Virus record (IMG/VR): IMGVR_UViG_3300020439_001078
Coordinates: 1-29,340 of that record
Origin: a virus
DNA: 29,340 nt
Strand: one strand, 5' to 3'
Shown here: piece after piece, positions 9,864-29,340 of the stretch
Layout of the letters: each line of letters starts with the position of its first letter
Numbering within the stretch: the first letter of the stretch is position 1
Position numbers and translations under genes: made by a program
The notes under the pieces: generated by a model
Databases searched by the model: none
What the model was told of the DNA's origin: nothing
Seen by the model: the letters and a program-made list of their open reading frames with translations, nothing else

Positions 9864-10997
9864 CTAACTGAGATGACCTAAATTTAGTAGATATTGGTCA
9901 GAATCCGCACTATAGAATACATGTCTGTCTTGGTCTATAGTTTCGAAGTCAAAATTGTTAGAGAAATCTATACTTGTATCGTCCAGTGTCGGTGAAGATG
10001 CGATTTGTGCTTCACGAAGTGAACTATACTGTAAATTAATCTCATTAATTGTTTTACTAGACAATTTATTTAGGTTAAAGAATTCTGTTCTAATTCTAGA
10101 CTTAATACCTGCCGAATCCACATTGAAATCATCAACCAATGATGTTACATCTGATACTGCCGTGTCTGCCAATGATACAACCCCTGTAATTGCCACTGGG
10201 GGTGGTGGTTCAATAACAACATTAGGTGCAGTGATTGTATCTTCCTTAGATGATATAATCTGCACTTCCGAACCAATAAACATCCCAGCTGGATGAACAA
10301 ATAACTTATATGGTTGAATCCATTCACTCTGAGATAATTCAGAACGCACCAGAATAGCAAACTGTTGATACAGTTTATTGTTAGTTAAAAACTTCTGTGA
10401 GTTAAATCCAATTTGTGATGTTGCTCTATAATTATCTTTTAGGTAGGTTTGGTACTTCGTTCTTGCACCATCACTATCTAATTGACCGTATTCTGTAGCA
10501 GGAAAAGCAGGAGAACCCTTTGATGCTTCTTCAAGTGCTTCAAGTTCTATCTCCCTAAAGTCATCCCCACCATTCAGTTTGAATACTTGTTCCTTTGTGT
10601 ATATGACTTCTGGGTCAATACTAAAGAAAGTTCTAAAGAACTGTTCAATAGAATACTTAGTTCCCTTAGAACGATACAGTGTGTTCGAGTATTTGGCAGC
10701 TGCTCTTTTATCAGCAAATCCTTCGAAGTATGCTTGACCCAAAAGCAGTTCATCTTCAATATACTCAAGTAAATCTAAATCTGTTTGAGTGATGTCTCTA
10801 TTATAGAACAACTCATTGATTAGTCTTGTAGGTGAAGAATCATCATCTTGATAATGATAATACTCATCTAACAGAGTAATCAGTTTAGGATATTCAGTAC
10901 GAAAGAATTGCGGAAGAATCTCTTTAATAGAGTCTTTAGGAAAAGCAATCTCTCTCCTATTTAAGTCCTTGAGTGTATCGTCTTGTTTATGAGGCAT
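9864..10997 (-). CDS. Baseplate wedge protein in gp7 position (377 aa)
   Basis: The gene lies between gp6 and the gp10-like/gp8 pair, which is the place of gene 7 in T4. The N-terminal 240 residues (QFFRTEYPKLITLLDEYYHY near residue 30; LYRSKGTKYSIEQFFRTFF near 110; WIQPYKLFVHPAGMFIGSE near 232) are conserved-looking and rich in aromatic and acidic residues. After a Pro-rich linker (IEPPPPVAITG, about 260) comes a short variable tail. It would tie gp6 to the wedge periphery. It is far shorter than T4 gp7 (1032), so only the core function is likely shared; the gp7 label rests on position and general character. The ATG at 10997 is two bases after the gp6 stop (TAAGATG). Confidence 0.6.
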   Translation of the reverse strand: MPHKQDDTLKDLNRREIAFPKDSIKEILPQFFRTEYPKLITLLDEYYHYQDDDSSPTRLINELFYNRDITQTDLDLLEYIEDELLLGQAYFEGFADKRAAAKYSNTLYRSKGTKYSIEQFFRTFFSIDPEVIYTKEQVFKLNGGDDFREIELEALEEASKGSPAFPATEYGQLDSDGARTKYQTYLKDNYRATSQIGFNSQKFLTNNKLYQQFAILVRSELSQSEWIQPYKLFVHPAGMFIGSEVQIISSKEDTITAPNVVIEPPPPVAITGVVSLADTAVSDVTSLVDDFNVDSAGIKSRIRTEFFNLNKLSSKTINEINLQYSSLREAQIASSPTLDDTSIDFSNNFDFETIDQDRHVFYSADSDQYLLNLGHLS

Positions 10998-25571: not shown

Positions 25572-26492
25572 TTACTCTTCGTTTGCTAGTTTAGCAAAGT
25601 ATGAAAGAGTGTCATCATCATCATCCTTAGATGTGATTTCTGGTTCTGGTGCAGAAGGAACTACTTTTGGTTCTGCTTCTCTAGGTGAGACTGCTTCTGC
25701 CGTTTTATTGAGTGATTCATTCTTGACAGTTGAACCACCACCAGTTGCCTGACCAAGGACTACCTCAAGACGAGACTTGAGTTCATCGTAAGACTTGTAG
25801 GTCTTAGGGTCAGTGAACTCTGTTACTTCATGTAAAGAGTTATAAGTTGCTTCGAGTTTTGCTTCGTCTGCTTCGAAGAGTGCAGAAGGTTCTTTGAACT
25901 CTGACTTATCATAGTTCCTGTAACCTGCAACATTGCGGATTTTCAATTGAAAGTCTGCACCTGCCCAGAAGTCAAAAGGATTGACTGGTTCTTCGCCTGG
26001 AAACTCAGGTTGCATTTTATCCATAATCTTGTCAAAGATTTTCTTACCGTAATCATAAAGGAATACCTTTCCTTCATTCTCAGGTTTAGCAGGGTCACTC
26101 ACGACCAAGATGTTGGAAACATAGTGAAGTCTGCGTTTTTGTTTTCTAGCAGTTTCCTTATCTTCCTCAATCCCAGAGTTCCACAATCTACTATTGTGTT
26201 CACTCACAGGGTCTTTCTCATTGAGAGTAGTCAGTGACTTCTCCACATACCACTGCCCAGTTGGGCCTTTGAAGAAATGGTCAAAGTATCTTACCCATGG
26301 TAAGTCTTGTCCTTCTCCTTGTGGTAGAAAACGAATCTGTGCGAAACCGTTCCCACTCTCATCGACAGTAGGTTTCCAGAATCGTAGGTCTTCGTATTTG
26401 TTTACAGTCTGCTTAGTACCAGACATCTCTGCGGCTGCAGATGCGAGTTTGCTAACATCAGTTCTGTTAGACTTTAGATTTGCAAAAGACAT
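25572..26492 (-). CDS. 32: Single-stranded DNA-binding protein gp32 (306 aa)
   Basis: The OB core is clear: [15 protein letters not shown] (T4 GNGQAVIRFLPSKN), [16 protein letters not shown] (T4 FKKNGKWYIETCSST), [20 protein letters not shown] then [17 protein letters not shown] (T4 [36 protein letters not shown]) and [13 protein letters not shown]. The C-terminus is an acidic tail ([19 protein letters not shown]), the usual site for contacting replication partners. It coats ssDNA in replication and repair. The protein contains no cysteine, so the T4 zinc site (His64, Cys77, Cys87, Cys90) is absent. A GGAG lies seven bases before the ATG at 26492, and a consensus sigma70 promoter with a palindrome precedes the gene, so it is separately expressed from the genes upstream. 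Confidence 0.95.
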   Translation of the reverse strand: [306 protein letters not shown]

Positions 26493-26589: not shown

Positions 26590-26859
26590 TTATTCTGGTA
26601 ATGACTCCCCAGATTTTGGAAGGAAATTGAGATTCATTGCTTCTAACTCAATCTTCTCCTTGATAGATGTAGAGATATACTTCTTTACATCCTCAACTTC
26701 TATTGTGTTCTCTTCACACAAATAAATGACTGCATCCATGTAAGTCATTACTTTCTGCCTTACAGTGTCTTCAATCATTTTAGAAAACTTTTTCTTTGAT
26801 AGAAAGGATGCAGTATCACCACTGCTATCCACTCCACCCATAATCATATCAACCTTCAT
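26590..26859 (-). CDS. 33: Late transcription coactivator gp33-like (89 aa)
   Basis: A small acidic protein whose second half (MTYMDAVIYLCEENTIEVED, then VKKYISTSIKEKIELEAMNL, then NFLPKSGESLPE) matches my recollection of gp33 proteins of marine T4-like phages. T4 gp33 (112 residues) bridges host RNA polymerase and the sliding clamp gp45 to activate late promoters together with gp55. The neighbourhood supports this: gene 33 lies beside gene 32 in T4 (32-59-33). The presence of several TATAAATA late promoters in the window fits a phage using the gp33/gp55 system. The start overlaps the preceding gene by 11 bases. Confidence 0.72.
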   Translation of the reverse strand: MKVDMIMGGVDSSGDTASFLSKKKFSKMIEDTVRQKVMTYMDAVIYLCEENTIEVEDVKKYISTSIKEKIELEAMNLNFLPKSGESLPE

Positions 26860-27421
26860 CTTCTTCTGCCCATAATTCTTCTAGTTCTTTTGTCCATACT
26901 GTGCCAATGTCTGGATACCAAGTATTGTAACTCCTTTTAGGATTACCATCCTTGTCGTATGCCATTGCCAAACAGACTTTCTGAACTCTATGTTCACGAT
27001 TCTCACCGTATCTGAAGTCTAACCACACACCGTGTGTTAAATACTTCTTCATATTATGTATATAAGTTGAAAGGTCTTGATATTCCATTCGTTCTTTGGA
27101 ACTACTAGATGTCCTATAACTCCTTATACCTTTAAGTTGTGCTTCGCACTCCTTTAACCATCCCTTTACTTTCTTCCAGTGTATCCAATGGTCTTCTGGC
27201 ATGTCGAGAAGAGAAGGGTGAACAGATTTACTACCATCCATTCCCCTTGCTTCTCTTGCTTTGGCAAGTCTCTCAGATGCAGCCTTCCTTTGCTCTTCAG
27301 ACATTGGTTTGCGTTTGCGAGTAACTTTCTTTCTCTCAAACCCAAGGTCTTCCATCGCCTTAGATAGTTTGGCATCACGAGTTGCTTTTGCCTTTTCAGC
27401 AGGGGTCAGTTTCTTAGACAT
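26849..27421 (-). CDS. Basic hypothetical protein upstream of gp33 (190 aa)
   Basis: I do not recognise a named family. The N-terminal 65 residues are a very basic, Ala-rich helix (PAEKAKATRDAKLSKAMEDL; KRKPMSEEQRKAASERLAKA, then REARG), which could contact nucleic acid. The C-terminal 125 residues look like a compact domain (HWIHWKKVKGWLKECEAQLK; YIHNMKKYLTHGVWLDFRYG; YDKDGNPKRSYNTWYPDIGT). In T4 the gene beside 33 is dsbA or 59, but neither resemblance is clear. The start has no Shine-Dalgarno: the whole upstream gap is an 18-base palindrome. It overlaps gp33 by 11 bases. Confidence 0.6.
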   Translation of the reverse strand: MSKKLTPAEKAKATRDAKLSKAMEDLGFERKKVTRKRKPMSEEQRKAASERLAKAREARGMDGSKSVHPSLLDMPEDHWIHWKKVKGWLKECEAQLKGIRSYRTSSSSKERMEYQDLSTYIHNMKKYLTHGVWLDFRYGENREHRVQKVCLAMAYDKDGNPKRSYNTWYPDIGTVWTKELEELWAEEDEG

Positions 27422-27447: not shown

Positions 27448-27717
27448 TGCGACAAAAGTCAACAGTGTATCTGGTCTAAAACTTCTCCACTCATTCAAGT
27501 CTAAGTCAAAGACTTTTACAACAGATTCGTTCTTTGTTTCAGAACCTTCTGTCTTAGGTCTCTTCTCAGACGGTATTAACTCTGACTTCAGAGTTGCTTT
27601 CATCTCACGAACACCACCATCTTTCACCTTAGTAAAAGATAGGTTAACAGTATTCTCTCGTAAGATGTTTACGATTTGGTCGTATGTCAATTCAAGATAA
27701 GTGCTAGTCCCAGTCAT
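27442..27717 (-). CDS. Small SH3 beta-barrel-fold (DUF2693-like) protein (91 aa)
   Basis: The pattern ELTYDQIVNILRENTVNLSF then TKVKDGGVREMKATL, and later VVKVFDLDLNEWRSFRPDTL, is that of small SH3-fold proteins common in T4-like phages (start helix, x-V-x-F-T-K-x-D-G-x-x-R-x-M-x-A-T-L strand, closing V-x-D-x-x-x-x-x-W-R-S-F-R). Their role is not established. Three in-frame ATGs exist (27738, 27723, 27717). Only the last has a well-spaced Shine-Dalgarno (GAGG at 27728-27725, seven bases), so I choose 27717; it overlaps the preceding 53-residue ORF by 14 bases. Confidence 0.7.
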   Translation of the reverse strand: MTGTSTYLELTYDQIVNILRENTVNLSFTKVKDGGVREMKATLKSELIPSEKRPKTEGSETKNESVVKVFDLDLNEWRSFRPDTLLTFVAV

Positions 27718-27865
27718 TGTCATACCTCGTAGTTTCATGATAAGTTTCTGTCACACCGATTTGGTCAAAATACTCATCAGTATCTTGCCAGTGCAATGCA
27801 GAATTATCATCGTAATCCTCGAAGGGTAAATCCTCAGAGATTACTTTCTTCTTTCTTCCAACCAT
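27704..27865 (-). CDS. Small acidic ORF between the receptor and the SH3-fold gene (53 aa)
   Basis: The ORF runs from ATG at 27865 to TAG at 27704-27706. It has a strong Shine-Dalgarno (AAGGAG, five bases before the ATG) and begins nine bases after the stop of the TonB-dependent-receptor-like gene. The product starts with a basic patch (MVGRKKKVISED) and is otherwise acidic (LPFEDYDDNSALHWQDTDEY). No family is recognisable. The good ribosome site and tight fit between two genes make it likely real. Confidence 0.6.
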   Translation of the reverse strand: MVGRKKKVISEDLPFEDYDDNSALHWQDTDEYFDQIGVTETYHETTRYDNDWD

Positions 27866-27874
27866 AATCACTCC

Positions 27875-29340
27875 TTATAATATAGTGTTGAAACTAAGTT
27901 TAAGTCTGCGTCCCCCAGAGTTGTAGTCTGGAATGAACTCATACTTGTTATCCAATAAATCCTCTACCTCAACTTTTATCTCTGTGGCAAAGCCTGGATA
28001 CCAACTGAAACTGATATTGAAAGTATTGACATCATCAATCTCTCTGCCATCAAAGTCAGCACCTTTATCGAATTCTCCAAGATACTCAACATTGAATCCT
28101 GCATACTTATAAGACACCTTAGTCCTATAGTCAGGAACTCTTAGTTTATCCGAATCAGTGAACTCACTATACACGAACAAACTACCTTTGTCAAGCGAAA
28201 TCTGATTTTGAAATCTAATTCCTTTGGATATGTAACTTCCAGTATTGATATAAGAATAAGAGTTCATATCAAAATCTATTCCTTCACTAAACTCATAGTA
28301 ATATAAAGACAACCAGTCGTTGCCTATCTCTGCTCCATATCCTTGTTCTGGTAACAAGTCTGGATTAGCAGATACCCATGAGTCCCCAAACTGTTCGTAC
28401 AGATTGGGTAATCTATAACTGTTACCTACGGAGAATCTCAATCCGTCATTCTCTAATCCTAGTCTTACAATGTGTTCGTCCTCTTCGTATCGATAACCAA
28501 CACTCACATTATCATTTGACCAGATGTAATAGGCAGAGTATGTTTCTCTCTCCCTTTCTCCGTAGGTCTCCTTCTGTCCACTAATGCCTAGTTCGTGACC
28601 AAGCATATCTACCAAAGTAATGTCAGCATAAGTTCTGTCTGATTCCATATCATATCCAGTATTATGCGTTGACTTATTATTAGTATAACCCAATGTAAAT
28701 CTATCATGGTCAAGAGAGACATTTAACTTCTCACCTTCCACATTGCAATCATCACTGACTGCAAAATTAGTGTCATAACAAGTGTCATACTCATAGTAAT
28801 AATCAATCAGTTCAATATTGAAAATGTCATACCCTGCTTTGAATGTCTTGTTTTCATACCAATCCTTCTCAGTGTTGGTTGACTTTACTGAACCTTGAGT
28901 TCCTTTATAGTAGGCAAGTTGAACATAATCATATTCAAGTATTGCTTTGGTTTCATCTTCTGCTACTTGAGTAAATAGATTCCTGCCAAAGTTCTCTTCT
29001 AAAAGAACCACACCTGCCATAGAACCACTACCAAATCTTACACTGTTTGCTCCAGTGATTACAGTTATTTTCTGTCCAGTAGATAAGTCATGACCAAAGT
29101 CATACCATCCAGAACTGGGGTCATTTACTGGAACACCATTCTTAAATACTCCAGTGTGTTTAGTGTCTGTTCCTGATAACTGAATACCATTAAACCCACC
29201 AAGTATAAATGTCTTAGTAGGTTGAATGGTTTCTAAAAGGTTATCTTCGGTTGGGTCTGTATTATCTTCTGCAATATATGCCCCAACAACAACTACTTCT
29301 TCGATTTCTTTTGCTTCTATTGTTACAGAAAACAATAGTG
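27875..29340 (-). CDS. TonB-dependent outer-membrane receptor-like protein, 5' end outside window
   Basis: Residues are numbered from a TTG at 29335. The frame is open to the right edge and its first residues (LLFSVTIEA) look like the end of a signal peptide, so the true start lies outside. IEEVVVVGA (11-19) is a TonB-box-like motif. A shortened plug follows: VFKNGVPVNDPSSGWYDFGH (63-82), then ITVITGANSVRFGSGSMAGV (90-109), the classic IExxxGxxSxxYGxGAxxGV signature. About 380 residues of alternating aromatic beta strands form the barrel, with YRLPNLYEQFGDSWVSANPD then LLPE (307-330) matching the N-P-x-L-x-P-E barrel motif. VEDLLDNKYEFIPDYNSGGR (457-476) is the standard penultimate block before the last strand (LKLSFNTIL). 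Cys186 and Cys197 could form a loop disulphide. It would lie in the host outer membrane. Total length is below BtuB (about 594), so it is a compact receptor. Its stop is nine bases before the 53-residue ORF, in the same direction as gp33/gp32. Confidence 0.85.
   Translation of the reverse strand, partial: LLFSVTIEAKEIEEVVVVGAYIAEDNTDPTEDNLLETIQPTKTFILGGFNGIQLSGTDTKHTGVFKNGVPVNDPSSGWYDFGHDLSTGQKITVITGANSVRFGSGSMAGVVLLEENFGRNLFTQVAEDETKAILEYDYVQLAYYKGTQGSVKSTNTEKDWYENKTFKAGYDIFNIELIDYYYEYDTCYDTNFAVSDDCNVEGEKLNVSLDHDRFTLGYTNNKSTHNTGYDMESDRTYADITLVDMLGHELGISGQKETYGERERETYSAYYIWSNDNVSVGYRYEEDEHIVRLGLENDGLRFSVGNSYRLPNLYEQFGDSWVSANPDLLPEQGYGAEIGNDWLSLYYYEFSEGIDFDMNSYSYINTGSYISKGIRFQNQISLDKGSLFVYSEFTDSDKLRVPDYRTKVSYKYAGFNVEYLGEFDKGADFDGREIDDVNTFNISFSWYPGFATEIKVEVEDLLDNKYEFIPDYNSGGRRLKLSFNTIL

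Follow-up and report, generated by a model that had tools for sequence, protein, structure and literature searches.

The window, 29,340 bp in length, is a whole IMG/VR viral record, and its right edge is therefore the end of the contig. At this edge lies an intact open reading frame (27875-29338, minus strand) of 487 codons that ends in a stop at 27875-27877; it lacks only its beginning, about nine N-terminal codons being cut off by the contig end. Judged from its sequence and predicted structure, the product is a compact BtuB-type TonB-dependent outer-membrane transporter, and not a certified BtuB. The features of the locus are as follows.

27875..29338, minus strand: putative compact BtuB-like TonB-dependent outer-membrane transporter (ORF, Plug PF07715, BtuB profile, AlphaFold2 model, VIA)
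29312..29338, minus strand: C-terminal part of the signal peptide, LLFSVTIEA (complete in L002/L011; start codon outside the window)
29279..29302, minus strand: TonB-box-like segment EEVVVVGA, the best-conserved region of the family
28994..29281, minus strand: plug domain with a shortened N-terminal side (PF07715, conservation, superposition on BtuB)
27881..28984, minus strand: predicted 22-stranded beta-barrel (AlphaFold2 strand list, loop conservation)
27704..27871, minus strand: 55-aa ORF of the same operon, after a 3-bp gap; relatives in the same place in L002, L011 and L146-L153
27442..27738, minus strand: 98-aa WYL_2 domain protein (phrog_1086)
26849..27421, minus strand: 190-aa phage protein, conserved and of unknown function, which served as bait for orthologous loci with and without the transporter
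26590..26859, minus strand: gp33, late-transcription coactivator (PF16805, E 7.8e-25; phrog_254)
25572..26492, minus strand: gp32, single-stranded DNA-binding protein (PF08804, E 2.9e-40; phrog_224, E 9e-109)

The first-pass annotation, made from the letters of the window alone, had described a single intact frame with a TonB-box-like start and a signal peptide running past the window edge, and both ends of this description are borne out by the close relative L002 (95% identical), in which the missing 5' end reads VKYLIIMFALLFSITIEA and then KEIEEVVVVGA, establishing a signal peptide followed by the TonB box. The signal peptide is also complete in L011 (VKYLIIMFALLFSITIEA, then K), and every full-length relative has a hydrophobic N-terminus, with a ribosome-binding site at the start, a hydrophobic core and an A-x-A-like site, by inspection the marks of a cleavable signal peptide. 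The TonB box near the mature N-terminus, recognized by motif, is present as EEVVVVGA/EEIVVTAQ variants in all full-length relatives. The plug matches PF07715 at profile positions 43-107 only, which indicates that its N-terminal part is shortened, as had been supposed. Within the barrel, the motifs NPDLLPE and DLLDNKYEFIPDY fall in extracellular loops 7 and 11, respectively; the NPDLLPE and LLDNKYE blocks singled out earlier are thus located, and they are conserved across the family, as are Cys187 and Cys198, which flank loop 3.

The identification of gp33 and gp32 as neighbours is confirmed by their domain and PHROG matches, and so are the common orientation and tight spacing, the next co-directional ORF being 3 bp away. 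The remainder of the window codes for a T4-like baseplate and tail. The window's gp6 is 41% identical to that of Phage C48C1 (Kyanoviridae), 37% to that of Pelagibacter phage HTVC008M and 34% to that of Methylophilales phage Melnitz; by gp6, an OM43 phage, at 34% identity, ranks as the closest phage of known host.

Fold and closest relatives

The Pfam Plug model PF07715 recognizes the window protein at E 1.7e-6 (28.9 bits versus a curated cut-off of 23.9) and all 27 of the 27 relatives; the barrel model PF00593 does not match the window protein and scores 50.3 bits (versus 27) with the relative L066. When relatives of 35-95% identity from IMG/VR were built into a profile and compared with all PDB chains, the best matches were all E. 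coli BtuB (E 5.6e-22), followed by other receptors at 0.003 or weaker, so that the profile search proposed for the nearest homologue places BtuB first. Only the family profile found such matches; single proteins run against the PDB with phmmer gave none. The 22-stranded barrel with a plug, which structure prediction had been expected to reveal, is predicted at high confidence by an AlphaFold2 model built with 58 homologues (pLDDT 90.1, pTM 0.89, exactly 22 barrel strands). By VIA the closest solved structure is E. coli BtuB 2gsk (Z 36.0, 2.6 Å over 475 residues), with a superposition that spans residues 6 to 487 of the model, plug included, and Foldseek also returns BtuB as its top match (E 7.6e-20). 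In the structural ranking, E. coli BtuB (Z 32.5-36.0) is followed by Bacteroides BtuB (31-32), with other TonB-dependent receptors at about 30 or less.

A third line of evidence is given by NCBIfam, in which three of the five family members tested have TIGR01779 (TonB-B12) as their top match, at E values down to 9e-16 and scores far below the equivalog cut-off (57.5 bits for the best relative versus 599.7); the window protein itself has no match to TIGR01779. By three independent routes, then, namely PDB profile, predicted structure and NCBIfam, the closest relatives of the family are cobalamin receptors, and its sequence family and fold are established. With BtuB (TIGR01779; PDB 1nqe, 1nqh, 2gsk) the phage protein shares the plug and 22-strand barrel, the TonB box and the signal peptide. 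It differs in its mature length of about 477 residues, compared with 594 in BtuB, in an identity of only ~17-18%, in shorter loops and plug N-terminus, and in being the gene of a lytic-type phage rather than of a cell. The Bacteroides BtuB1-3 proteins with their BtuG lipoproteins (8blw, 8bmx, 8p97) are the second-best fold matches (Z 31-32), and no BtuG-like partner was identified for the phage transporter. Full-size versions of 660-680 residues, located before the helicase gene (L216 3953-5986, L224, L233, L240 4004-5986, L251) and carrying TonB boxes EEIVVTAQ or EEVVVVGQ, may bridge the family to cellular receptors.

Among viral proteins, the only strong structural match is A0A8D9FQQ5, a TonB-dependent receptor SusC from an uncultured marine phage (E 2.5e-13), which differs from the transporter in its length (805 aa) and is 13% identical to it. 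The PHROG family phrog_5687 (unknown function) is matched by 42 of the 58 family members (best E 1.8e-11); since this profile has 760 positions and only ~105 plug residues align, it is probably a larger receptor type that has gone unannotated. A TonB-dependent receptor annotated in pelagiphage Skadi was interpreted by its authors as adsorption-related (PMC10504331) and, unlike the transporter described here, is encoded among the structural genes of a pelagiphage that is not T4-like. ExbB has been reported from Lentisphaerae phages (PMC11361711). In the open-access literature we found no description of the present family, and the Skadi annotation was the one previous mention there of a TonB-dependent receptor encoded by a phage. 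What would be new is a miniaturized BtuB-type transporter family resident in mostly marine T4-like phages, phage TonB-dependent receptors as such having been annotated earlier.

Distribution, genomic sites and expression

Over 100 contigs of IMG/VR, drawn from many metagenomes and reaching 170 kb, hold relatives among phage genes, which establishes a wide distribution in phages; each of the 30 records tested has a single plug gene. The carriers, uncultured T4-like phages that form a large family, are mostly marine, a habitat judged from phage kinship. An artefact of assembly or binning, in which host DNA was fused to phage DNA at the contig edge, is suggested by a transporter that runs past the contig end and by its host-like annotation, and such a join had been named as one result that would overturn a phage-borne gene. 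However, in L002, L011 and L012 the transporter has phage genes on both flanks, it is carried by phage contigs of 103-170 kb, lying inside those of 149-170 kb, and orthologous loci that lack it show an empty site between c14 and the WYL gene. Together with the breadth of the distribution, these observations rule out a host-phage chimera for practical purposes, and the claim of a phage-borne gene holds.

In the window's lineage, the transporter is a sporadic insert at two sites near gp32/gp33. Loci retrieved through the 190-aa neighbour mostly lack it and represent the natural empty site, in which c14 (phrog_624) is followed by the WYL gene directly, or by the 55-aa ORF and then the WYL gene. 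In L013/L029, contigs of 103 and 149 kb, the transporter lies just downstream of gp32. In a second lineage the transporter is flanked by a phrog_1250 gene and the gene of a UvsW-like helicase; here it is present in 67 loci, the junction is empty in 8 and 5 loci are uninformative, so that with 67 of the 75 informative loci occupied the transporter is close to fixed, which argues for its importance in this lineage. Wherever the flanks are long enough in a third lineage, the transporter has a ClpP or a small secreted protein on one side and a peptidase/CobS-like pair on the other. The position upstream of gp33 and gp32 given in the first-pass annotation therefore stands for the window's sublineage and does not extend to the rest of the family, which occupies at least five other sites; the proposed survey of related phages has shown the gene to be occasional at the window locus and widespread elsewhere. 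On a maximum-likelihood tree, six position changes are required, the minimum possible for seven positions, which indicates largely vertical inheritance within each lineage.

A search of 50,697 phage records revealed no homologue beyond suspect bacterial contigs, and no INPHARED record matched the transporter family. BtuB-type matches in Acinetobacter and Salmonella 'phage' records were set aside, as they look like mislabelled bacterial DNA; the INPHARED entries CAKLQH020000002, AGRM01000004 and AFYI01000005 carry host btuB and look to be bacterial sequence misfiled as phage. When 84,980 cellular genomes were scanned twice with seeds, no subfamily member came up; these scans relied on conserved peptides and are uninformative on ordinary distant BtuB.

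In none of 47 loci is a T4 late promoter (TATAAATA) found within 150 nt upstream of the transporter. In seven loci a sigma70-like promoter with 0-1 mismatch lies within 120 nt upstream (background 3.3%), and in several a terminator-like hairpin precedes the gene. In the window's lineage, as read in L002, the GTG start of the transporter directly follows the stop codon of c14, an arrangement that couples the two genes. The lack of late promoters, the sigma70-like promoters and the coupling to c14 suggest early or middle expression, in time for insertion into the outer membrane. A strong terminator-like hairpin (GGGGAGACTTCGGTCTCC then T8, ~9930-9974 of the locus) separates gp32 from the transporter in L013/L029, where the transporter may thus depend on read-through.

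Function, ligand and significance

For 15 pairs of sequences dN/dS is 0.11-0.24, which establishes purifying selection. Conservation within the phage family, scored over 38 sequences after reduction to 85% identity, is highest in the TonB box (mean 0.82) and the plug (residues 47-115; 0.76), followed by the extracellular loops (0.66), strands (0.56) and periplasmic turns (0.42), and the loops exceed the rest of the barrel with a circular-shift p of 0.016. In TonB-dependent receptors the loops are usually the most variable part. This distribution of constraint is better matched by a conserved ligand with TonB coupling than by a decoy, and in combination with the low dN/dS favours a working importer over a degenerate one; that the protein imports some ligand we consider quite probable. 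Of the two roles weighed in the first-pass annotation, nutrient import is therefore preferred, with the strongest constraint on the TonB box, the plug and the extracellular face, and its lean towards exclusion or decoy from the small size of the protein finds no support. The best explanation, which we hold to be somewhat more probable than its alternatives combined, is a phage-encoded working BtuB-type importer of a scarce small ligand, most likely a corrinoid, during replication. The transporter would be transcribed along with replication-stage genes, or elsewhere in the family from a sigma70-like promoter of its own, and would be exported and inserted into the host outer membrane by the host Sec and BAM machinery. 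With its TonB box retained, it would draw energy from host TonB-ExbB-ExbD and carry the ligand to the periplasm during phage replication; its insertion and activity, the identity of the ligand and the benefit to the phage are what we infer from the features described above.

Two other functions have to be weighed. The receptor could remodel the cell surface, masking or displacing a host TonB-dependent receptor or acting as a decoy and so excluding competing phages or colicin-like toxins, for TonB-dependent receptors are frequent points of phage adsorption and receptor-blocking proteins are known from phages, T5 Llp with FhuA (PDB 8a60) being among the structural matches; a small secreted glycine-zipper protein encoded directly upstream in some lineages points the same way. 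A decoy, however, requires neither a TonB box nor a conserved plug, and both are the most constrained parts of the protein; the outward loops are conserved rather than fast-evolving, receptor-blocking phage proteins are mostly small, and a functional receptor risks mopping up sibling virions, so that we regard surface remodelling as improbable. The same machine could also carry other cargo, such as a ferric siderophore, heme, PQQ, nickel or an oligosaccharide. The BtuB-like fold serves other receptors as well (ChuA, FhuA, PqqU and ZnuD, Z 28-30 against the model), NCBIfam heme/transferrin receptor families also score, weakly, no B12 riboswitch was found in the window and three near relatives, and the phage RNR is not of the B12-dependent type. 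Against this, BtuB is clearly first by profile and by structure, and cobalamin receptors from two phyla outrank all others, which makes other cargo a rather unlikely alternative.

The small secreted proteins upstream of the transporter (L049 9360-9953, L050 9468-9935, L056 9513-9953, L063 9507-9950 and others) contain a conserved glycine-zipper segment, ADTSDVI(A/G)(G)IIFGGxLGSEIQK, plus cysteines. In nine c39 loci of one lineage the gene lies 8-23 nt upstream of the transporter, and similar proteins occur in L030, L041 and possibly L039/L042/L060. The representative from L063 has no Pfam or PHROG match, and the protein may be a partner of the transporter or an envelope-modifying protein.

Within the preferred reading of a working importer, the first rank of BtuB by profile and structure makes a corrinoid (vitamin B12 or a precursor) the likeliest ligand, and if something is indeed imported, we consider the case for a corrinoid evenly balanced. 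In one lineage the transporter directly precedes a phage peptidase and CobS-like ATPase pair, an adjacency that is only suggestive because CobS-like ATPases are common in T4-like phages. A radical-SAM protein with a B12-binding-like domain is encoded in 6 of 19 phage records with the transporter and in 0 of 11 relatives without it, a weak association (one-sided p about 0.05) in which phylogeny is a confounder; this protein adjoins the transporter in L030, L049 and L054. The radical-SAM genes (L053 9210-10766, L049 11524-12972, L056 15685-17244, L029 16080-17810, L012 15235-16938) encode PF04055 with a sub-threshold PF02310, a weak B12-binding N-terminal domain, have no PHROG match, and occur also in two near relatives of the window phage. 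The low identity to BtuB weighs against a corrinoid. So does the riboswitch search: a cobalamin riboswitch is often found upstream of cellular btuB, and none reached the Rfam threshold in the window, L002, L011 or L012. A B12-dependent RNR of the phage as the reason for import was rejected, since a class I small subunit is present and NrdJ_Z falls below its cut-off, and the phages' own RNR thus does not need B12. MetK was found nearby at 38 of the 67 loci that have the transporter and at 3 of the 8 that lack it, frequencies that are uninformative on a link to methionine; in many helicase-lineage phages an S-adenosylmethionine synthetase gene (L072 14333-15436 and relatives) is located a few kilobases downstream.

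Large and coherent as it is, the family has hardly been annotated (PHROG 'unknown function'), and at about 477 mature residues it offers a very small natural TonB-dependent transporter useful for structural work. Known phage auxiliary genes act mostly inside the cell; a phage-made outer-membrane importer would change what the infected cell can take up, and the findings suggest that these phages refit their host cell for the uptake of a cofactor in short supply. More tentatively, lytic marine phages might widely encode a miniaturized corrinoid importer that rewires the outer membrane of the infected cell to scavenge vitamin B12 or a precursor, the imported corrinoid perhaps feeding B12-dependent radical-SAM or methionine chemistry. 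If so, vitamin transport across a membrane would be phage-encoded and near-core in at least one major phage lineage. B12 is often scarce in the sea and is traded between microbes, and phage-driven uptake would tie infection to the flow of this vitamin.
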